A DNA stretch of 64,000 bases from Leptolyngbyaceae cyanobacterium JSC-12. Lineage in GTDB: Bacteria > Cyanobacteriota > Cyanobacteriia > Leptolyngbyales > Leptolyngbyaceae. The notes beneath the pieces are model-generated. The model had not been told where the DNA came from. It did not search any database and worked only from the letters and a program-made list of their open reading frames with translations. The stretch spans positions 3,064,199 to 3,128,198 of the forward strand of contig CM001633.1 in the NCBI GenBank assembly GCA_000309945.1, in the 5' to 3' direction. Positions 10,321-64,000 of this stretch are shown in pieces. The stretch's first letter is position 1. The number at the start of each line of letters is the position of its first letter. The position numbers were made by a program, and so were the translations under genes.

Positions 10321-11298
10321 TCAAACTCCGTTCTTAAAGTTCTGAGGGCCCTTATAGCCTGAAATTCTTGCCAACTCAGTCAAGCTTTGAGTTCCAGGAT
10401 AAAACCTGCCATTAATTTCCCAGGTTGGGAAACCAAACGCCTGTCCTGTTTGCTGTTGAGCTTTGGGTGCAATCTGCTCACACAAGGCTGTTTGAGAATT
10501 TTTCCCATCGGCAGCACACTCGATATAAGGGTAAATCTGAGCAGCTTCTTTGCCGAATAGCTCTTTTTGGTCGTGGCAATGGGGACACCAGTAAGCTCCA
10601 TACATCTTTGCCCCAATTTGTTTCAGATGTTTGGCTAACTCAATTTCAGCAGTACCTGACGTATTCGCAACTAGAATACCTGTGTTACCATTTGCCACTT
10701 GTTGATTGGCAGCACTATTGACCGGGGCATAAATTGCTAAGGTGCCAACTAGTGTAATCACAGCGACGATCGCACCCGTGAATAGCAATTGACCCACATC
10801 ATCCCAATCGCGCCCAATCAACGTTAGCACCAGCATGGAAACTGCGAAGATCGCCGAAGCAATGCAGTAATAGCAGATGCCACCTGCTCCGAACTTAGAG
10901 ACAAACTGGGAAAACATAACGTACATCAGGTAGCCGCTAAAAATAGTCATTGCTGTTGCACCAAAGAACAGCAGCCACCAGGTTGTTTTTTCCAGGCTTG
11001 TACGAAGTGGGCGATTTTTATCAGCATTGATCAGCAGTGGGCCCAGTGCAAATACTGCCATTGCTAGGTATGCCAGCAAACCGAACAACGAGAGCGGTAA
11101 GCCAAAAACTGTCGCGTAAGGACTTTCCAACACTCGTTCACAACCACTAGTGGGACACACAGCAGCCGTTTGTGTCAGCTTGTTAATAGTCAGATAGGCA
11201 GTGTTAGCAGCCCCCAATACTGCGATCGCCCCCATGATTGGACGTGCCCAACGGTGAATCCATGGGACATTGCGACGACGACTGACAAGACTAGACAT
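10321..11298 (-). CDS. VKOR-thioredoxin fusion, oxidative folding enzyme
   Basis: Membrane disulfide-forming enzyme, the cyanobacterial counterpart of DsbB plus DsbA. It passes electrons from lumenal or periplasmic thiols to quinone. The 325-residue protein has a VKOR domain with C48/C53 (VCPTSGC) and the quinone-proximal CYYC at 142-145, four to five membrane helices, then a thioredoxin-like domain with CPHC at 238-241. The ATG at 11298 has AAGGGA upstream and is preferred over a TTG-type start at 11319. It is the last gene of a likely btpA-thioredoxin-VKOR transcription unit. Confidence 0.93.
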   Translation of the reverse strand: MSSLVSRRRNVPWIHRWARPIMGAIAVLGAANTAYLTINKLTQTAAVCPTSGCERVLESPYATVFGLPLSLFGLLAYLAMAVFALGPLLINADKNRPLRTSLEKTTWWLLFFGATAMTIFSGYLMYVMFSQFVSKFGAGGICYYCIASAIFAVSMLVLTLIGRDWDDVGQLLFTGAIVAVITLVGTLAIYAPVNSAANQQVANGNTGILVANTSGTAEIELAKHLKQIGAKMYGAYWCPHCHDQKELFGKEAAQIYPYIECAADGKNSQTALCEQIAPKAQQQTGQAFGFPTWEINGRFYPGTQSLTELARISGYKGPQNFKNGV

Positions 11299-11452
11299 AC
11301 AACAATCCCTTACACACAACAGGATCTTCTCAGATTGAGGAAATCATGTTCCATTGTGCCCCATCTAATCCAAGGATTGCAGATCTTCGGATTGGGATTT
11401 TGACAAATCTTACTTCTCTATCAGTAAACCCAGTTTTGCCTGCACCGCTGGC

Positions 11453-11926
11453 TCAAAACTTGCGAGAACCTTTGTAATTCGACGCTTCTGCTAATTCTTC
11501 AAACGACTGTACACCAGGATAAAATTTGCCATTAATTTCCCAGGTTGGATAACCCTTGATTTTTGCAGTCTGGCACAGATTCGGTCTCGGATTCTTACCA
11601 CGGGGATCGCATTCCACATAGTCAATATCCCGAAACGCTGCACCAAACATTTCTATCTGCCGAGTGCAATAGGGACACCAGTAGGCACCGTACATTCTTG
11701 CGCCAATTTTCTTGAGATGATCTGCCAAGGCGGCAATTGAACTGCCATCTGCCACTTTCAGCGTGATGGCAGTAGATTTTGCAGGATGATTGGTCTGTTT
11801 AGCCTGTGATGCTCTGGCGGAAGGGCTGAAATTTATGCTTGTCAGCGCGATCGCCCCAATTACCAGAAACGGAACTTGCCAAACCCTCTGGATCAATCGG
11901 CTCATTATGTTGGATTTCTGTGACAT
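11453..11926 (-). CDS. Secreted thioredoxin-like protein, paralogue of the VKOR C-terminal domain
   Basis: A 157-residue exported thiol-disulfide protein. Residues 1-40 form a signal peptide (hydrophobic VPFLVIGAIALTS, then SARAS). The remainder contains KKIGARMYGAYWCPYCTRQ with CxxC at 84-87, two further cysteines (VECDPRG, NLCQTAK) and YPTWEINGKFYPGVQSFEEL. These match, nearly motif for motif, the thioredoxin part of the VKOR fusion encoded directly downstream. The ATG overlaps the btpA stop codon (TAATG), so the two are translationally coupled. A soluble electron donor or substrate adaptor for VKOR is a reasonable inference. Confidence 0.9.
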   Translation of the reverse strand: MSQKSNIMSRLIQRVWQVPFLVIGAIALTSINFSPSARASQAKQTNHPAKSTAITLKVADGSSIAALADHLKKIGARMYGAYWCPYCTRQIEMFGAAFRDIDYVECDPRGKNPRPNLCQTAKIKGYPTWEINGKFYPGVQSFEELAEASNYKGSRKF

Positions 11927-28463: not shown

Positions 28464-29726
28464 GTGGATTCTACTTCTAACCTGTTGCAAACACTCAGCA
28501 ACCCAACCAGTTCAGTCAATCCCAATTCTTTCAGCAGCCAGGGCTTTCGTCACTTCATGCTGAAGGAAATTTATCAACAGCCGGAAGTGATTCAAGCATG
28601 TTTAACGCAGTATTTAGGAGGTCAGGAATCAGAAATTAGAAATCAAAAGGACTTTAGATTGCAGATTGCCGATTTTGGATTAAAGCCACCCGATAGTCGC
28701 CAATCGCCAATCGCCAATCGCCAATCGCCAATCCCATCCTCCATCCCTCATCCCGTCAATGAAATTCACATCATTGCCTCTGGCACCAGCCGCCATGCTG
28801 GGCTTGTTGCCCAATTTTGGTTGGAGCAGTTGGCGAAAATTCCAACCCGAGTCCGTTCAGGTTCAGAATTTGTAGAAGCACCTTTACCCTTGACTACCCA
28901 TACGCTTACGCTTGGTATAACGCAGTCGGGAGAAACAGCAGATACACTGCAAGCGTTGGAATTAGAAAAACAGCGACGTTCAGGTTTGTCGGCAGCGTAT
29001 CAATCGTGCTTGCTCGGCATCACGAACCACCCCGCGAGTTCGTTAGCGCAACAAGTTGATGTGGTGATGGCAACCCTGGCTGGGACTGAAGTGGGGGTGG
29101 CAGCGACGAAGACATTTACCACTCAATTGCTAGTGCTTTTCTTGCTGACACTCGATCTGGCAAATCACCGTCGAGCAATGCAGCATGATCGCATTCAAGA
29201 CTTTCTGAATGCGTTGAATCAACTGCCTGCAAAAATTCAGCAAGTATTCCAGCAAAATTCATTGATCCAAACGTTGGCGCAACAGTTTGTTGAAGCGCAA
29301 AGTTGTGTTCTTCTGGGGCGGGGTATTAGTCGAGCGATCGCTTTGGAAGGTGCTTTGAAACTAAAGGAAACTACCTATCTCCATGCTGAGGGCTATGCGG
29401 CTGGTGAGTTCATGCATGGGCCGATTGCCCTGCTGGATGAGCGCGTCCCAGTAATTGCGATCGCCCCCGCAGGAACTTACCCTGCGATTTTCTCCAATGT
29501 TCAGAAAGCCAAGTCTCATGGTTCGCCTGTAATTGGCATTGTCGCTGCTGACAATGCGGCAGAAACGGCTGGAGTGTTCGATACTCAAATTGTTGTGCCA
29601 GCGGTGGATGAAGTATTGTCGCCAATTCTGACGGTCATCCCCCTGCAACTACTGGCGTATCACATTGCTGTATTACGCGGATTGGATGTAGATCGTCCCC
29701 GCAATATTACTAAAACGCTGGTTTGA
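28464..29726 (+). CDS. Double-SIS sugar isomerase/deaminase (GlmS-like, no glutaminase domain)
   Basis: A 420-residue protein with two SIS domains (HIIASGTSRHAGLV; LGRGISRAIALEGALKLKETTYLHAEGYAAGEFMHG) homologous to the isomerase half of GlmS but lacking the N-terminal glutamine amidotransferase. It is probably a glucosamine-6-phosphate deaminase (NagB-II) or a related amino-sugar isomerase. Residues 54-97 are an insertion encoded by dispersed repeat DNA: DFRLQIADFGLK, then RQSPIANRQSPI from a CGCCAAT heptamer array. The frame stays open through it. GTG at 28464 is the start, 52 nt after the glycosyltransferase gene, so a shared polysaccharide role is plausible. Confidence 0.85.
   Translation: MDSTSNLLQTLSNPTSSVNPNSFSSQGFRHFMLKEIYQQPEVIQACLTQYLGGQESEIRNQKDFRLQIADFGLKPPDSRQSPIANRQSPIPSSIPHPVNEIHIIASGTSRHAGLVAQFWLEQLAKIPTRVRSGSEFVEAPLPLTTHTLTLGITQSGETADTLQALELEKQRRSGLSAAYQSCLLGITNHPASSLAQQVDVVMATLAGTEVGVAATKTFTTQLLVLFLLTLDLANHRRAMQHDRIQDFLNALNQLPAKIQQVFQQNSLIQTLAQQFVEAQSCVLLGRGISRAIALEGALKLKETTYLHAEGYAAGEFMHGPIALLDERVPVIAIAPAGTYPAIFSNVQKAKSHGSPVIGIVAADNAAETAGVFDTQIVVPAVDEVLSPILTVIPLQLLAYHIAVLRGLDVDRPRNITKTLV
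28649..28732 (+). repeat. Dispersed AGATT-type repeat plus CGCCAAT heptamer array inside a coding region
   Basis: 28649-28687 carries GGACTTTAGATT and then AGATTGCCGATTTTGGATTA. 28698-28732 is five perfect head-to-tail copies of CGCCAAT. Related copies occur at 46079, 50714 and 57213. The tract is translated in frame within the SIS protein, in a region outside both SIS domains. Confidence 0.8.
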
Positions 29727-44861: not shown

Positions 44862-44890
44862 GATCCATACAAGCTCGATCCATACAAGCT
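44862..44890. repeat. 15-bp tandem duplication in the dnaX leader
   Basis: GATCCATACAAGCT occurs at 44862-44875 and 44877-44890, separated by one base. It ends 32 nt before the dnaX start codon. Confidence 0.7.
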
Positions 44891-44922
44891 TGCGATTACC
44901 TCCGACTTCTACTCCTCTCCCA

Positions 44923-46884
44923 ATGTCCTACGAACCTCTACATCACAAATATCGACCCCAAACCTTTGCTGAACTGGTTGGGCAGGAGGCGATCGCGGCA
45001 ACTTTGACCAACGCCATCCAACAGCAGCGAATTGCCCCAGCGTATCTGTTCACAGGAGCACGCGGAACCGGGAAAACGTCTAGTGCCCGGATTTTGGCAA
45101 AGTCACTGAATTGTCTCAAGAGCAAAAAACCTACTGAAACACCCTGCGGCGTGTGCGAAGTGTGTCAAGCGATCGCTCGTGGGTCTGCGTTGGATGTGAT
45201 TGAAATCGATGCTGCCAGCAACACTGGGGTAGATAACATTCGAGAACTGATCGAACGGGCCCAGTTTGCACCTGTTCAGTGCCGCTACAAGGTTTACATC
45301 ATTGATGAAGTGCATATGCTCAGCACTGCAGCATTTAACGCCCTGCTGAAAACACTGGAAGAACCCCCAGAGAGAGTTGTGTTCGTGCTGGCAACGACCG
45401 ATCCCCAACGAGTCTTGCCTACCATCATCTCGCGCTGCCAGCGGTTCGACTATCGCCGCATTCCCCTGGATGCCATGGTTACCCATTTACGACATATTGC
45501 CGACCAAGAAACGATTCCGATCACGGATGGTGCCATTACCCTGGTGGCGCAAATCGCTCAAGGGGGGTTGCGCGATGCCGAGAGCTTGCTAGATCAGCTC
45601 AGCTTACTATCCGGGAAAATCGACATTGAACACGTTTGGGATCTGGTTGGCTCTGTGCCCGAACGAGACTTGCTAGGATTGTTGACTGCGATCGCCCAAG
45701 ACACCCCCGAAACCTTGCTCGACAGCACCCGCCGCTTAATGGATCGGGGTCGAGAACCCCTGATTGTGCTGCAAAACCTCGCCAGCTTCTATCGAGATTT
45801 ACTCATTGCCAAAACGGCTCCTACCCGTAATGACCTCGTTGCCCTTACCTCTCCCACCTGGCAACAACTCTGCGACCTTGCCCAAACATTAGATTTGAGT
45901 GTGATTCTGGCAGGTCAGCAACATCTCCGCGCTGCCGAAGTTCAACTCAAGCACACCACCCAGCCCCAGCTCTGGTTAGAAGTCACCTTGATGGGCTTAT
46001 TGCCCTCAGCGATCAGTCCGCAACAACCAGCCGCTAGCCGCCAGCCGCCAGCCGCCAGCAGGCAGCAGGATTGTCACTTGCCGATTTTAGATTCTAGATC
46101 AGAGGCATTATTAGATAATCTGCAATCCCCTGTCCCAAACTACCAATCCCCCATTGCCTCTTCCCCTTCCTCCTCCGCCTCACTCCCATCCCCCTCCTCC
46201 ACTCCCATTGAAACACCACAGCCGCAACTTGAAACACCACAGCCGCAACCAGTTTCCAGTTTAGATAAGATTTGGCAGGAAGTGATCCAGCAGATTAAGC
46301 CATACTCCACTCAGGTAATGGTGCGGCAACAATGCCGCTTGCTGGGACTGGATGGGCAGCAAGCCCGATTAGGGGTTAGTTCACAACCCTTGTTTAAGAT
46401 GGCACAAGGCAAGCTGCCTAATATTGAAGCAGCCTTTCAAAAAGTGTTCGATCGCAAAATTTACGTTGCCCTGGAAGTTGCGGTGCTTCCATCAGACTTA
46501 GGCGAAGACCCCTCACCCTCTCCGGTAGCCAACTGTTCGTCTAAACCCAATTCGCCACTTGCTCCATCTGGTTCTCAAGCAGCGGAACCACCCATTCTGC
46601 GTCCAGATAGAGCATCTTCCTCCCTCGATCAAACTGCCCACCCAACTCCACCTAACCCAGTGCCCACCCAACCAAAAGACACCTGGGTGATTGAAGATGA
46701 AGTCACAAGAGCAGCCAAAAAACTAGCTGAGTTTTTTGCGGGCGAAGTCGTCAACATGAGCGAAGAGTCGGATGAGGCGAACTCAGAACCAGCTTCGAAT
46801 GCATCGTTGCCGTCCCAACCTCAGTCGTCATCGTCTACTCCCATACCAGACACCCTTGACAATGACGACGATGTGCCGTTCTAG
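44923..46884 (+). CDS. dnaX: DNA polymerase III subunit gamma/tau
   Basis: Clamp-loader ATPase of the replisome. The 653-residue protein starts with the canonical MSYEPLHHKYRPQTFAELVG; an upstream start would add 11 atypical residues. P-loop GARGTGKTSS is at 45-54, the zinc module uses C64, C75, C78 and C81, and Walker B is YIIDEVHMLS. A Ser/Pro-rich variable stretch at about 365-450 contains SRQPPAASRQQ and a short dispersed-repeat piece (LPILDSR, YQSPIASSP), then twofold ETPQPQ. The C-terminal domain (IWQEVIQQIKPYSTQVMVRQ) is conserved in cyanobacterial DnaX. No intein is present. Confidence 0.94.
   Translation: MSYEPLHHKYRPQTFAELVGQEAIAATLTNAIQQQRIAPAYLFTGARGTGKTSSARILAKSLNCLKSKKPTETPCGVCEVCQAIARGSALDVIEIDAASNTGVDNIRELIERAQFAPVQCRYKVYIIDEVHMLSTAAFNALLKTLEEPPERVVFVLATTDPQRVLPTIISRCQRFDYRRIPLDAMVTHLRHIADQETIPITDGAITLVAQIAQGGLRDAESLLDQLSLLSGKIDIEHVWDLVGSVPERDLLGLLTAIAQDTPETLLDSTRRLMDRGREPLIVLQNLASFYRDLLIAKTAPTRNDLVALTSPTWQQLCDLAQTLDLSVILAGQQHLRAAEVQLKHTTQPQLWLEVTLMGLLPSAISPQQPAASRQPPAASRQQDCHLPILDSRSEALLDNLQSPVPNYQSPIASSPSSSASLPSPSSTPIETPQPQLETPQPQPVSSLDKIWQEVIQQIKPYSTQVMVRQQCRLLGLDGQQARLGVSSQPLFKMAQGKLPNIEAAFQKVFDRKIYVALEVAVLPSDLGEDPSPSPVANCSSKPNSPLAPSGSQAAEPPILRPDRASSSLDQTAHPTPPNPVPTQPKDTWVIEDEVTRAAKKLAEFFAGEVVNMSEESDEANSEPASNASLPSQPQSSSSTPIPDTLDNDDDVPF
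46079..46093 (+). repeat. Short dispersed-repeat fragment in dnaX
   Basis: TGCCGATTTTAGATT matches the core of the 28649 and 57213 repeats with one change. It lies in the variable linker of DnaX. Confidence 0.5.
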
Positions 46885-49662: not shown

Positions 49663-50040
49663 ATGGCGATCGACAAATTGCAACCTGCACCCAACCAGCA
49701 AGTCGGAGTTTATCTTCCTTACTATCCCCAACAAGGGAAACGCTCTATTCTGCCCTATGCTATTAGTCTCTATCAAAAAGGAGCGTTGGAAGGAGAGCGA
49801 AAAATTGAGGGTGGTGACAGTATTCCTTTTATTGCTACCTGGAATGTGTCTTCCTTACCAGCTGATTTAACTCGCTGTCGGCTGCAATTTGATGGCAACT
49901 CCGAACTGAGCTATGAGTTGATGATGGCAAATTTTGAGTTTGTCGATTTCCTGATTGAGGTGATTTTGAATTTCAAACGGGCACGATTTGCTGATTTTTC
50001 TCAAGCGTTTTACCGTAAACTCATGCGCTACGAGGACTGA
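49663..50040 (+). CDS. Conserved hypothetical cyanobacterial protein
   Basis: A 125-residue soluble protein with no recognised domain. It starts MAIDKLQPAPNQ with GGACAATCAGCT upstream. It contains YLPYYPQQGKRSILPYAISLY and ends in a basic helix (LNFKRARFADFSQAFYRKLM). Its 3' end overlaps that of cbiA by 13 bp on the opposite strand. Confidence 0.72.
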   Translation: MAIDKLQPAPNQQVGVYLPYYPQQGKRSILPYAISLYQKGALEGERKIEGGDSIPFIATWNVSSLPADLTRCRLQFDGNSELSYELMMANFEFVDFLIEVILNFKRARFADFSQAFYRKLMRYED

Positions 50041-51578
50041 GCTACCTTCCGACATTGTGCCAGGAATCGTAAAGGGAGTTCAGGATTTGCTCCCCAATGG
50101 AGATGGATATACGATGCATGGAGATTGTGCAGGTACCAGCCTTCGATCGCAAGGGTCGGTGCCTCTTTTAATTTGAACGTATTCGATTTGAGCCTAAACA
50201 GAGGGCTGGTTGGTTCAGTGGTGAGGTGGGAACGGTGAAATTCATGCCCCCACGCGATCGCGCCTTTGCGAAGCATCACACCATCTTGAATAGCTTCAAC
50301 CTGGCGATAACCTAACGTCAATTGGTTACCCATGACTGCCGTTGTTGGTAAAACTCCGACCATTTCCCAGGCTTGTTCCTGGAAATCCACAATTTTTTGG
50401 CAGAGATACATTAATCCACCACATTCAGCATAGGTTGGGATGCCCTGCTGAATTGCCAGACGCACAGCTTCCAGGGTCGGTGAGTTTGCTGTCAGTTGCT
50501 CGGCAACCATTTCGGGAAATCCCCCGCCAAAATATAATCCATGCACATTTTCCGGCAACTGCAAGTCATGTAGCGGACTCCAGCAAACCAGTTCTGCTCC
50601 TAGTTCTACCAGCAAATCCAGGTTGTCTTGATAGTAAAAACTAAATGCTGCATCCTGGGCGATCGCGATGCGAAGGGGAGGGGAGATAGGGGATTGGGGA
50701 CTAATGGATTGTTGCAATCTAAAATGGTCAATCTTTAATCTAAAGTCCTCCTGTCTCGTGACTTCTGGCTCCTGTCTTTCCGGTTCATCTTCCCCATCAG
50801 CCGCATCTCCGAACTTTTGCTTTTTGCCTTCTGCTTTCTGCTTTCTTACTAACGGCATTAGCTGCTCCCAGGCAAACCAGTTTTGGGCGAAATGTGCAAG
50901 TTGGTCAATGATGGTGTCTAGATTTTGTAATTCAACCGTGGGAATGAGTCCCAGGTGGCGATCGTGGAGAAGGATGCTGTCCTGGCGGTTCAAAACTCCC
51001 AGAATGGGTATGTTTAGCGGTTCAAGAGCGGATTGCAGTAATTCTAGATGGCGATCGCTGCCAACTCGATTGAGTACTAAACCTGCAATTTCCAGATCAG
51101 GATCGAAACTACGGTAGCCATGTACCAGTGCTGCGATCGACTGTGACATGCGGCTGCAATCCACCACCAGCAAAATTGGAATCTTTAACAGACGAGCCAC
51201 ATGTGCCGTACTGCCAAACCCGCCAGCAAATGGGCTTTCTGCTACTGCTAACTGCTGACGGCTGACTTCCCGTTTTCGCCTCCCAGTCTCCGCTGTTGCC
51301 CCATCAAATAACCCCATTACACCTTCAACCAATGCCACATCTGCTGTTTGAGCGTATTGATTAAAGCACTGCTGCACATAAGTTTCAGAAGTCAGTATGG
51401 GATCAAGGTTACGGCAAGCGCGCCCAGTCACATACTGATGAAACATGGGGTCAATGTAGTCAGGCCCAACCTTGAAAGACTGCACCGTTAGCCTGTGGTG
51501 GCACAGATAGGAAAGCAGGGCCAGCGTGACAGTGGTTTTGCCAACCCCGCTCCGCTCGCCCGCGATGATTAGGGGCAT
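50028..51578 (-). CDS. cbiA: Cobyrinate a,c-diamide synthase
   Basis: Glutamine-dependent enzyme amidating the a and c side chains of cobyrinate in corrinoid synthesis. The 516-residue protein has the N-terminal P-loop GERSGVGKTTVTLALL, then VKPGPDYIDP-type FKVGPDYIDPMFH, and a C-terminal glutaminase domain with LYFGGGFPE and the nucleophile Cys in PTYAECGGLMYL. Residues about 243-302 are an insertion (KQKAEGKKQKFGDAADGEDE, then DFRLKIDHFRLQQ and SPQSPISPP) encoded partly by dispersed repeat DNA. Without it the length would match the family norm of about 455. It starts 7 nt after opcA. Confidence 0.92.
   Translation of the reverse strand: MPLIIAGERSGVGKTTVTLALLSYLCHHRLTVQSFKVGPDYIDPMFHQYVTGRACRNLDPILTSETYVQQCFNQYAQTADVALVEGVMGLFDGATAETGRRKREVSRQQLAVAESPFAGGFGSTAHVARLLKIPILLVVDCSRMSQSIAALVHGYRSFDPDLEIAGLVLNRVGSDRHLELLQSALEPLNIPILGVLNRQDSILLHDRHLGLIPTVELQNLDTIIDQLAHFAQNWFAWEQLMPLVRKQKAEGKKQKFGDAADGEDEPERQEPEVTRQEDFRLKIDHFRLQQSISPQSPISPPLRIAIAQDAAFSFYYQDNLDLLVELGAELVCWSPLHDLQLPENVHGLYFGGGFPEMVAEQLTANSPTLEAVRLAIQQGIPTYAECGGLMYLCQKIVDFQEQAWEMVGVLPTTAVMGNQLTLGYRQVEAIQDGVMLRKGAIAWGHEFHRSHLTTEPTSPLFRLKSNTFKLKEAPTLAIEGWYLHNLHASYIHLHWGANPELPLRFLAQCRKVAQSS
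50714..50748 (-). repeat. Dispersed AGATT-type repeat within cbiA
   Basis: On the cbiA coding strand it reads GGACTTTAGATT, then AAAGATTGACCATTTTAGATT. It differs from the 28649 copy at few positions and is in the same orientation and the same reading frame (DFRLKIDHFRL versus DFRLQIADFGL). Confidence 0.75.
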
Positions 51579-55868: not shown

Positions 55869-56933
55869 TTATCGGGCAGCATTTAGTGTTTCCTCTCGCA
55901 CCCTCGCGTGCTCCTTCAAAAAGGACTCCACCAACGCTACATCCTCTGTGCTGCCAATAATCAAGGGTGTACGCTGATGCAACTGACCTGGTAACACGTT
56001 CAAAATCTCTTCAGTGCCAGTACTAGCCCGTCCTCCAGCCTGTTCTGCCAGATAAGCCAATGGGGCGGACTCATACAACAAGCGCAACTTACCTTCAGGC
56101 TTTTTCAAAGTGCCAGGATATAAGAACACCCCCCCTTGAAACAAAATTCGGTGAAAGTCCCCCACCAATGCCCCACTGTAACGAGCCGTGTAGCCCTCAT
56201 GGCGATGCACATAGCGGATATAATCCCGAATACCCTCATCCCATTGCCAAAAGTTACCTTCGTTGACGCTGTAGATTGAACCGTGAGTGGGGATTTGAAT
56301 ATTAGCTGTTGATAGGATAAATTCCCCCAGGCTGGGATCTAGCGTGAAGGCATGAACACCTCTACCAATCGAGTACACCAGCATAGTGCTGGGACCGTAG
56401 AGAATATAACCAGCCCCAATCTGTTTGTGTCCTGGTTGCAGCAGATCAGCAGCCGTACCATCCAGGTCTTCTCCCTCTTGCTGGCGAATCGCAAAAATTG
56501 ATCCCACATTGATGTTGGTATCAACATTAGAAGACCCATCAATTGGGTCGTACACTAACGTATAGCGACCAATTGGGCAATTCTCAGGAATGTAATACGG
56601 CTTCTCCATTTCTTCAGAGGCAAGGCGACAGACCAACCCGCTCTGCTTAAACACGGAAATAAACACCTCATTGGCGTAGACATCCATCTTTTTGACAGAT
56701 TCACCCTGCACATTCACCTCGCCGGTAAATCCTAAAGCTCCCTCCATTAGCCCAGCCCGGCTAAGGCGGCGAGCGATTAACTTACCCGCCAGAGCAATTC
56801 GGTTCATTAAAGCACTGAGGTCTTGAGCATCTGCAGAAAAGCTCTGAAGCTGCTGAAAGATGTGGCGCGAAAGCGTTGTGCAGTCGCGATCAAGTGCAAG
56901 TTCGTGATCCAGTGGTTGGTCGGCATCAACCAT
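55869..56933 (-). CDS. fbp: Class 1 fructose-1,6-bisphosphatase
   Basis: Hydrolyses fructose 1,6-bisphosphate for gluconeogenesis and sugar regeneration. The 354-residue protein has [15 protein letters not shown] and [20 protein letters not shown] with the metal-binding DPIDGSSN, and [20 protein letters not shown] with the substrate-binding [11 protein letters not shown]. ATG at 56933, with GGGAGGTCA upstream on the coding strand. It heads the fbp-tal-zwf-opcA cluster. Confidence 0.96.
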
Positions 56934-57258
56934 TCAGATGACCTCCCTACAAGGTTCGAGAAATTCGACAGGAAAGCGAACAGTAGTCAACCCCACGTGG
57001 TGTCAGCGCTTTCAATTTATTGGGAATCCCTCACTGGGTTTCACCTTCTATCTTAGGGAGACATTCTGAGAACAACAGGGAACTTTAGATGAACTACAGA
57101 TTAGAGGGGATGGGGAATGGAGGATAAGGGATAAGGAAATAGGGGATGGGATGAAGGCAATGATTGGAGATTAGGGGTTACAGATTGGAGATTGAAGACT
57201 ATTTAACGGCTCTAATCCAAAATCGGCAATCTAAAACTGCTAACTTCTCCCTGTCCTG
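56934..57258. other. Intergenic region upstream of fbp with dispersed repeats
   Basis: 325 nt without a gene. 57100-57240 is built from G/A-rich repeats (GGGGATGGGG, GGATAAGGGATAAGG, GATTGGAGATTAGG) and includes the repeat core at 57213. The 60-odd nt next to fbp, or the DNA beyond the repeats, must carry the operon promoter, but no convincing -10/-35 pair was identified. Confidence 0.5.
57213..57232 (-). repeat. Dispersed repeat core, intergenic copy
   Basis: The minus strand reads AGATTGCCGATTTTGGATTA, identical over 20 nt to the copy inside the SIS protein gene at 28662-28681. Confidence 0.8.
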
Positions 57259-58071
57259 CTACTTGCTAAAATCCACCGGGCAGCCCTCAGCGAGTTTGGT
57301 GCCGCAGACTTTGCAAAACTGAGCATCAGCATCGTGATAACCCAGGTTGCATCCAGGGCAAATGGTTTCGACTTTGTTGGATGTTTTAACCAGGCGTTTA
57401 ATTAAATCGCCCAGTTGCCAGGGAATGATGGCGATGCCTGTCAGAATCATTAAGATGGTGAGCAGTCGCCCGGTTTCGGTGCGGGGTGTGACATCGCCGT
57501 AGCCAACGGTAGTCATGGTGGCGACGGAAAAGTAAACCGCATCCAGAAAGGTGTGAAATACATTAGGGTTGGTGGGATGTTCAACCTGGTAAATTAGCCC
57601 AGAGTAGACGAAGACAATGATGAAAATTGTTAGTAAGATGCGGGTGAAAATGACGCTATCTTCGCGGCTAACATAGCCGATGATGGTTTTGCCTTCTAAG
57701 AAGCGAATCAGACGCAGAATCCGAAACCAGCGAAATACCCGAATAAACTGGATACTGAAAGAGCTGAAGAAAAACGGCAAAATTGCCAGCAAATCGATGA
57801 TGGAGTAAAGGCTGAAGATATAGCGGATGCGCTTTTCGGCACACCAGAGACGAATCAAGTATTCAGTGACAAAGATCCACAGAAGTATCTTATCGAGCAG
57901 TTCAAGCTGCGATCGCGTCGCCTCTGGCAAAGAATAGGTTTCTGCCACAAAAATGGCAGATGACAGCAGAACGAGTACCGTAATCGATAAGTTAATGACC
58001 TTACCGATTGGTGTTTCAATATCTTCAAGATAAAAGCCGATTTGCTGGCGCAATGATATGGCGTGATCCAT
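57259..58071 (-). CDS. Voltage-gated potassium channel with C-terminal zinc ribbon
   Basis: A 270-residue six-helix ion channel (Kv/KvAP type). The voltage sensor S4 is FIRVFRWFRILRLIRFLEG (109-127) with regularly spaced Arg. The selectivity filter is MTTVGYGDVTP (186-196). After S6 (LLTILMILTGIAIIPWQL), a short cytosolic tail ends in a four-cysteine ribbon, C238/C241 and C253/C256 (CPGC, CKVC). ATG at 58071. The zinc ribbon replaces the more common TrkA-N or cyclic-nucleotide domain. Confidence 0.9.
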   Translation of the reverse strand: MDHAISLRQQIGFYLEDIETPIGKVINLSITVLVLLSSAIFVAETYSLPEATRSQLELLDKILLWIFVTEYLIRLWCAEKRIRYIFSLYSIIDLLAILPFFFSSFSIQFIRVFRWFRILRLIRFLEGKTIIGYVSREDSVIFTRILLTIFIIVFVYSGLIYQVEHPTNPNVFHTFLDAVYFSVATMTTVGYGDVTPRTETGRLLTILMILTGIAIIPWQLGDLIKRLVKTSNKVETICPGCNLGYHDADAQFCKVCGTKLAEGCPVDFSK

Positions 58072-62085: not shown

Positions 62086-62408
62086 CAAATTGGTGATGGG
62101 TGATGGGTCATTGGTCATGTCAGTTTTAGCTGACTCTAATTAGGAGGCTGCACTGGTTCTACTGGAAGATTCTTCGAAGAGCAAAGGGTGACGCGATCGC
62201 AATTTGGAGCCAAGTTACAAATTCCAAATCATTTTTCACTGCTCAACTGCTTTTTCTGAAGTGTCAAGCTCTCAGCACACATTGCAACACTCAACCATCC
62301 TGTTCAGACAAAAATCTCTGTTGGGGTGAGGGTAAAATTGGGCACAATGACTGACCGAATTCGAGCAGACTCTACATACACGGTGTCTTCATACAGCCCA
62401 TTGACCCA
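62086..62408. other. Intergenic region with low-complexity repeats and a fragment shared with the AraC gene
   Basis: 323 nt. Just after glgB lies GGTGATGGGTGATGGGTCA, a short tandem repeat. At 62256-62279, CTGAAGTGTCAAGCTCTCAG and the next four bases match 63258-63281 inside the AraC-type gene at 23 of 24 positions. No intact ORF is present; a decayed AraC-like gene piece is possible. Confidence 0.45.
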
Positions 62409-62882
62409 TTAGCAAACCGTCACTTGTTTAGTTTCTGGGTCAACGATCCAATATTCGGCAATTTCGCGTGCAGCATATTCCGTGCGTTTGTAGCGATAGT
62501 CCCGATCCCAGGTTTTCTGACCCGGACTCACCACCTCAATCACTAGGGCAGGCGGTGGCATATCGCAGGTAATCGTAGCACGACGACTGCCTGCCAATGC
62601 CGCTTTCGAGGCTTCTGTATGAACTAACAAATCCGGTAATCGACACCGTGCCCGTTGCCCTGTAACCTCAATTTCAGTTCCCCAGACAACCCATTCTGCT
62701 GGAAGGTGCTGAATTAGCTCTAACAGCAGTTTCCTGGCAATTCCCAGATTTTCATCGCTTTCAGGCGGCATCTCAACGAGTTCCCCATCTACCAGCTCAT
62801 AACGGGTATCCGTGCCGTCATCATAAGCAAGATACTCTGCAAAGGTGAGAAGTTCAGTTTTTGGGGAAGCGGCTTGACTCAT
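62409..62882 (-). CDS. Uma2 family nuclease-like protein (DUF820)
   Basis: A 157-residue restriction-endonuclease-fold protein of the Uma2/DUF820 family, which is greatly expanded in cyanobacteria and has unknown function. Features: [30 protein letters not shown] at the N-terminus, CRLPDLLV with the active-site Asp, [21 protein letters not shown] with Glu and a later Lys, and [16 protein letters not shown] at 62882. It stands alone. Confidence 0.92.
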
Positions 62883-63118: not shown

Positions 63119-64000
63119 ATGTCTGCAAAGCAACCTTTGGCGATTGACTGTGTGGATTTACCCAAGTTTTTGCCCGCTCCGCCCCTGCTAACCAGTTTTC
63201 AAGCAGGTTGGAGTAGTATTCAGCTTGCCCATTACTGCCAATCCTCGATTGATATCCCTGAAGTATCAAGCTCTCAGCACATAATCACTATTTCACTGGG
63301 ACATCATCAAGGATGTGATCTGGAGTTTGTTTCAGAGGGGCGTTTACAGACGATCTCGTATCATGAAAAAGATTTTGCAAGGGGTTTTATTGAGATCGTT
63401 CCCGCTAACTCACCTTGCGGAATCCGTTCGATTTCGGTTACTCAATCCATTGAGTGGATTAGTTTCTATCTAGAACCGACATTTCTCGCTCAGATTGCCT
63501 ATGAATCGGTTAATCCTGATCGAGTTGAATTGTTACTGACACGGAAAAAATGCGATGCCTTAATTCATCAGATTGGTCTAGCACTCAAGTCTAGTTTAGA
63601 AACGGTTGGGGTTGGCGGTCGTTGCTACGCCGATTCAATGGCAACAGCAATGGCAGCTCATCTGCTGCATCATCACTCTACTCGCAAGCATGACTTTCGA
63701 GAACACGAAGATGGATTGCCAAAACAAAAACTTAGGCAAGCGATTGAATACATCCAGGCGCATTTAGGTGAAGATCTATCCCTAAACGACATTGCCAATG
63801 AACTGGGGATGAGTCAGTACTATTTTTGCCACCTATTCAAGCGATCCACGGGCATCTCGCCCCATCAATTCTTAATTCGTCAACGAGTCGAACGCGCAAA
63901 GCTTCTGCTCAAGCAACCAGAACGCACGATTACATCCGTAGCATTGGAATGTGGGTTTGCCAATCAGAGCCATTTTGCCCGGTGTTTCTGTCAATACATC
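63119..64000 (+). CDS. AraC family transcriptional regulator (partial, runs off the window end)
   Basis: Open from ATG 63119 to the end of the window with no stop, 294 codons seen. GGAGGG lies about 10 nt before the ATG. The C-terminal part is a double helix-turn-helix of the AraC type: LRQAIEYIQAHLGEDLSLND, IANELGMSQYYFCHLFKRST, GISPHQFLIRQRVERAKLLL and, at the edge, SVALECGFANQSHFARCF. The first 180 residues are a putative sensor domain without a recognised ligand. Only a few tens of bases are probably missing. Confidence 0.88.
   Translation, partial: MSAKQPLAIDCVDLPKFLPAPPLLTSFQAGWSSIQLAHYCQSSIDIPEVSSSQHIITISLGHHQGCDLEFVSEGRLQTISYHEKDFARGFIEIVPANSPCGIRSISVTQSIEWISFYLEPTFLAQIAYESVNPDRVELLLTRKKCDALIHQIGLALKSSLETVGVGGRCYADSMATAMAAHLLHHHSTRKHDFREHEDGLPKQKLRQAIEYIQAHLGEDLSLNDIANELGMSQYYFCHLFKRSTGISPHQFLIRQRVERAKLLLKQPERTITSVALECGFANQSHFARCFCQYI

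Follow-up and report, generated by a model that had tools for sequence, protein, structure and literature searches.

We analyzed a 64-kb stretch of DNA (the window) from the complete 5.53-Mb, one-contig chromosome of Leptolyngbyaceae cyanobacterium JSC-12. The window holds four copies of a repeat element, one each within a SIS-domain protein gene, dnaX, and cbiA and one between genes. The features, in window coordinates, are as follows.

28464..29726, plus strand: first host gene, a stand-alone SIS-domain protein resembling the C-terminal isomerase half of GlmS (Pfam SIS; NCBIfam PRK00331 profile positions 237-597)
28620..28754, plus strand: whole SIS-protein insert, ~residues 53-97, with purine heptads, core, and (CGCCAAT)n pyrimidine heptads (ortholog alignment; peptide profile match 28629-28754; pLDDT)
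28649..28682, plus strand: element core GGACTTTAGATTGCAGATTGCCGATTTTGGATTA (sequence searches, element model)
28697..28733, plus strand: period-7 array, TCGCCAA x5, forming the 3' hairpin arm (period-7 scan; fold)
44890-46884, plus strand: host gene dnaX, DNA polymerase III gamma/tau
46012..46200, plus strand: dnaX linker insert, with AGCCGCC heptads at 46029-46069 followed by a divergent core and pyrimidine arm (model match 46061-46163; peptide profile E 2e-18; period-7 scan)
50028-51578, minus strand: host gene cbiA/cobB, cobyrinic acid a,c-diamide synthase
50679..50849, minus strand: cbiA/cobB insert in the linker between the nucleotide-binding and glutamine-amidotransferase domains, with a heptad array at 50815-50846 (translation, orthologs, Pfam, period-7 scan)
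50675..50756, minus strand: element-model match within cbiA (104-position sequence model)
57090..57248, minus strand: intergenic copy, flanked by a gene at 55869-56933 and an ion-channel-like one at 57259-58071 (model match 57155-57248, E 9e-18)

A preliminary description had pointed to a repeat stretch at 28649-28732 in the SIS gene, and this proves to be a genuine member of a dispersed element. Window searches place AGATTGCCGATTTTGGATTA at 28663-28682 (+) and, as the intergenic 20-nt exact copy already noted, at 57213-57232 (-), where the chance expectation with up to three mismatches is 0.00 for the window; GGACTTTAGATT starts at 28649 and recurs within cbiA, there on the minus strand. As cbiA is itself a minus-strand gene, the SIS and cbiA copies are both sense to their hosts, and they share a frame, giving the peptides DFRLQIADFGL and DFRLKIDHFRL, as originally reported. 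The short piece seen in the dnaX linker is also present, as a divergent copy, CTTGCCGATTTTAGATTCTAGATC, with the peptide CHLPILDSRS. The similarity runs longer than was first noted: in ungapped comparisons, 28623-28722 pairs with 50675-50774 (100 nt, 71%), and SIS positions 28663-28747 pair with intergenic positions 57148-57232 (85 nt, 75%). By the peptide profile, the frame of the intergenic copy is broken by one TAG and one TAA.

Other features were seen along the way. A longer GlmS-like frame of 690 aa lies elsewhere in the genome, and C1:4408712-4409920 is the genome location listed beside the SIS protein gene. Within the window, neighboring related genes at 10321-11926, a larger membrane-thioredoxin-like one and a thioredoxin-like one, share 41- to 63-nt direct repeats of 78-90% identity, and a 43-nt direct repeat (79%) at 62237-62279 and 63239-63281, ~1 kb apart, lies on either side of the gene at 62409-62882.

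Architecture and genomic distribution of the element

Copies of the element contain, in order, purine-rich heptads (e.g., GGAGTCAGGAGTCAG), a core of GATTNNN heptads (TTTAGATTNNNGATTTTRGATT), a short spacer, and pyrimidine-rich NNNAATC heptads (CCAATCNCCAATCN, CCCATCC). Some inserts, that of mutM among them, carry AAATTCA heptads where GATTNNN is expected. The arms are complementary in their heptads, and the ends are variable, with no clean target-site duplication seen. As the two arms are roughly complementary, the reverse strand resembles the forward one except in the core. Single strands are predicted to fold into an imperfect hairpin of short GATTN helices with small internal loops between them; the z-scores of six copies range from -1.0 to -3.8, the hairpin being weak for single copies.

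Genome-wide, GATTNNNGATTNNNGATT with at most one mismatch occurs in 287 places of the 5.53-Mb chromosome versus 48 for a reversed-pattern control. The genome was then searched with a 104-position sequence model (built from 19 copies) and a 42-residue peptide profile (8 peptides); training copies match these by construction, while chlD, which lay outside the training set, was found by both. The model yields ~25 near full-length copies. Nine strong in-frame coding copies lie in the genes for the SIS protein, aspartate carbamoyltransferase (pyrB), a PMT_2 protein, a TPR-FkbM protein, and a DarB-like ketosynthase fusion and in hpnB, dnaX, cbiA, and chlD, with weaker or AAATTC-type inserts in mutM, mutS2, and genes for an MFS transporter, an S15 peptidase, and a spermidine-synthase-like protein. 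The ~60 genomic places that were retrieved are mostly intergenic. Two motif matches, L047 (AITDFRL) and L059 (WIFDLGF), were excluded as chance heptads in ordinary genes, having the pattern without the arms, and the idea that a copy at L015 lies in a cobalamin riboswitch was rejected, there being no Rfam match at the gathering score.

Period 7 is specifically enriched. A scan for near-exact arrays found 8 in 464 kb of JSC-12 and 11 in 400 kb of G002, a relative of the same genus, with 5 in genes in each case; periods 4, 5, 10, and 11 gave 0 in both, and period 8 gave 0 in JSC-12 and 4 in G002. Called genes make up 86% of both samples, and the coding share of arrays is uncertain, as 3 of the 5 JSC-12 coding arrays come from the original window. 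Across genomes the arrays are patchy: 88 versus 3 for the control in JSC-12, 168 versus 2 in G002, and 12 versus 13 in G001, also of the same genus. The reversed control, (TTAGNNN)4, is itself enriched in G005, G032, G029, G021, G003, and G007, reaching 326 places versus 0 forward in G005, a pattern that suggests other heptad families in other lineages.

Insert sites in proteins and among relatives

The copies had been described as lying outside catalytic domains. This holds for the three window genes, where Pfam boundaries put the inserts within linkers. For the SIS protein, an AlphaFold2 model (29 sequences, mean pLDDT of 81.5) assigns values of <50 to residues 54-82, in the insert, which is predicted with low confidence as a loop flanked by ordered elements, in keeping with disorder. 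Genome-wide the description fails, since the PyrB insert (~residues 245-291) lies inside the Asp-binding domain, that of MutM precedes its residue 150, with 57 residues beyond the NCBIfam model, and in G002 the Pfam matches to RecJ DHHA1, an HMGL-like barrel, and HATPase_c are broken around the insert. We infer that surface loops are the common feature of the insert sites.

Insert-free orthologs, which the preliminary description had proposed to seek, do exist. The SIS site has only a short linker in G001, and the hpnB site, filled in G015, is empty in G001 and G002; the chlD site is nearly empty in G002. Elsewhere the same places are filled differently. At the SIS site, G002 has a longer, different insert, and G007, of another genus, has another array, (PVSSLQS)n; in several relatives the CbiA linker is occupied by heptad inserts unrelated to that of JSC-12, and elsewhere it is short. 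When 11 genes were each set against as many as four relatives, insert sites usually coincided, also between genera, and insert sequences differed, so that sites recur while their contents are rewritten. Identical inserts at identical sites in distant relatives had been named as evidence against a mobile repeat, and here the outcome is mixed, the site often being occupied and the sequence usually different. An intein or intron was rejected, as the insert spans ~45 residues, keeps the frame, and varies in sequence from species to species at a given site.

The mutM outer insert is recognizably the same in JSC-12 and G002, and in G002 two additional GGTTCGGCTGACTCACCGGAAGC units are nested in it, for a net gain of 48 nt in frame. 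The choice between one old insertion and a hot spot as the source of a shared site is settled for mutM only.

The 24-base GGTTCGGCTGACTCACCGGAAGCC, found within heptad inserts, has 15 copies in G002, including a tandem pair in mutM, with hosts that include genes for a LeuA-type synthase, RecJ, a histidine kinase, an ABC transporter ATPase, MutM, DnaX, and the SIS protein. Exact 24-mers are common to 14 genes. With 13 of the 15 copies identical and zero in the JSC-12 and G001 genomes, the 24-mer has spread recently in G002. A second unit, CTTCCCAGAGCGTCAGCCGACGG, has nine copies; as pyrB and mutS2 hold two each, there were fewer independent events than copies. Elements nested within nested elements also occur in G002, as in L256 (pyrB), which reads GGTTCGG(TGTTCGGCGAACTCACACGAGCCGC)TGACTCACCGG.

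Orientation and reading frame of coding copies

All nine strong coding copies in JSC-12 are sense and use one frame (..EDFRLPIADFGL..QSPIxNPQSPI..), with the peptide pattern (S/N)Q(E/K)DFRLPIADFGL..QSPIxNPQSPI. A common frame had been put forward as support for in-frame insertion beyond chance; it is seen, and it is what a stop-codon filter would produce. A stop-free forward frame is present in 8 of 16 intergenic copies, for 6 of the 8 in the coding phase, and a reverse one in 4, with 5 stop-free reverse frames in all. As intergenic copies are mostly open in the coding frame too, such a filter accounts for most of the frame sharing, and frame identity was rejected as a sign of peptide selection. 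Orientation goes modestly beyond the filter: 9/9 sense compared with a stop-filter sense share of 8/13 (~0.62) gives a p of ~0.01, which is suggestive, not strong. The idea that the arms are intrinsically stop-free through purine/pyrimidine skew was likewise rejected, as the arms of intergenic copies have 0.038-0.067 stops per codon, not below the window background of 0.040-0.042.

The nested units of G002 are also sense. All 15 copies of GGTTCGGCTGACTCACCGGAAGCC lie in open frames of 412-941 aa and all are sense, 14 in the frame GSADSPEA, while 8 of the 9 copies of CTTCCCAGAGCGTCAGCCGACGG are in open frames, 8/8 sense, in three different frames. Since 0.858^15 is ~0.10, the location of GGTTCGGCTGACTCACCGGAAGCC in genes is not by itself surprising; the sense-only orientation is more so, as the antisense frames of the nested units are partly open.

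Known repeats and the origin of the inserts

Several known repeat classes invite comparison. The short tandemly repeated repetitive (STRR) heptamer sequences of cyanobacteria were reportedly described by Mazel in 1990, and the very small mobile repeats of cyanobacteria termed SDR reportedly by Elhai and coworkers in 2008. Like STRR, the JSC-12 element consists of degenerate 7-nt units in tandem and is scattered over a cyanobacterial genome (period 7 specific; 287 versus 48). SDR elements (21-27 nt, in heptamer repeats) are matched by the nested 23- to 24-nt units of G002 only, which are dispersed, near identical, and set within arrays and each other; these differ in being nearly all sense inside genes, and the likeness is one of size, dispersal, and setting. 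STRR units are 7 bases long, dispersed, and hairpin-capable (PMC2670836). In JSC-12, the RNase P RNA (RF00010 match; L036 1357-1790, genome C1:1595789-1596222) has a heptad-repeat insert in a helix, the copy sitting between ACCGCCCUCAG and its pairing partner CUGAGGGU. This ties the family to STRR, since a 1997 paper by Vioque (cited in PMC2858038) reports STRR in its title as lying within the RNase P RNA gene of heterocyst-forming cyanobacteria. Unlike the STRR in the literature that we found, which are intergenic or in rnpB, the JSC-12 copies are often in frame in protein genes and have a conserved core.

Outside cyanobacteria, the Rickettsia palindromic elements (Ogata et al. 2000) are listed in PMC6649704 among the few structured inserts in coding sequence. 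The element resembles them in behavior, as a palindromic repeat that keeps the frame of many unrelated genes and that their protein products tolerate, and departs from them in its cyanobacterial host, its heptad construction, and same-site contents that differ by species. The enterobacterial RU-1/2/3 are small mobile repeats that keep open frames inside annotated genes (PMC2759123), unlike ours in being MITE-like units of 103-168 bp not described as heptad-built. REPIN/RAYT systems, Nostoc punctiforme included, also have hairpin repeats dispersed in one genome (PMC3116915). No description of in-frame heptad elements in conserved cyanobacterial proteins was found in the literature, with limited coverage of subscription journals that makes novelty uncertain.

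We consider it probable that these cyanobacterial repeats are STRR/SDR-like and act in the manner of Rickettsia palindromic elements, having been copied to many genomic sites and being tolerated in flexible loops. This takes up the earlier proposal of a small mobile repeat tolerated in frame, of which the dispersed family, the in-frame insertion and tolerance in conserved proteins, and the insert-free orthologs are all found; mobility would be the source of the dispersion. A quasi-palindromic repeat of degenerate heptanucleotides would be copied around the genome by some enzyme or process and inserted between and into genes. Within genes, its survival would require a loop able to accommodate a soluble, probably disordered peptide and a length and phase that bring in no stop; as only one sense frame of the element is essentially free of stops, surviving copies would encode the same kind of peptide, presumably a neutral one. 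An occupied site would persist across species, its contents rewritten through heptad turnover and nested 23- to 24-nt elements. Several points count against this reading: neither a transposase nor a target-site duplication or terminal motif was identified for the element, single copies fold only weakly, sense orientation somewhat exceeds the stop-filter expectation, and inserts shared by site between species could also be explained by repeated heptad growth.

Sense-only nested copies confined to genes could instead have arisen if units passed from one coding insert to another through recombination (gene conversion) or transcript copying. The two in-gene nested G002 elements (15/15 and 8/8 sense, with partly open antisense frames) are what such a route would give; however, no machinery for it was identified, the units may have inherited their orientation from the oriented host arrays in which they are nested, and 15/15 in genes is not unusual at 86% coding (0.86^15, ~0.10), and we regard this route as unlikely. 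Equally unlikely is a coding-strand-specific mobile element, whose units would favor the sense strand of translated sequence as they spread, perhaps via transcripts, or would survive nowhere else, with loops of conserved enzymes continuously rewritten over genus-level time.

Slippage would dispense with a mobile unit, heptad arrays arising de novo in tolerant linkers and growing independently in each lineage. The specific enrichment of period 7, the way heptads at a shared site vary by species, and the apparent other heptad families of other lineages (reversed-pattern counts, G005) fit this, and same-site inserts could reflect repeated de novo growth at permissive loops. Yet the 104-position model and the 42-residue profile link unrelated genes with E values down to 1e-18, untrained chlD included, and slippage of 7-mers leaves the exact 24-mers common to 14 G002 genes unexplained; we find slippage rather improbable.

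Selection of the insert as peptide-coding sequence, also raised initially, would make the inserts functional linkers or regulatory segments, as the sense orientation in both genomes, the single frame of 14/15 G002 24-mers, and the recurrence of sites between genera might suggest, and is very improbable, as stops account for the frame, same-site sequences differ between species and are absent in some, and the SIS insert is modeled with very low confidence, as for a disordered loop.

A dispersed, in-frame repeat, with a peptide that is most likely tolerated rather than useful, joins two phenomena usually treated separately, the heptamer repeats of cyanobacteria and in-frame "selfish" coding repeats. 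PyrB, MutM, ChlD, RecJ, the LeuA-like protein, and other conserved proteins offer a natural series of empty, filled, and refilled loops, so that protein tolerance of inserted peptides and the movement of very small repeats become directly testable. The series also counsels caution, as what looks like a functional linker of low complexity in a cyanobacterial protein may instead be repeat DNA.
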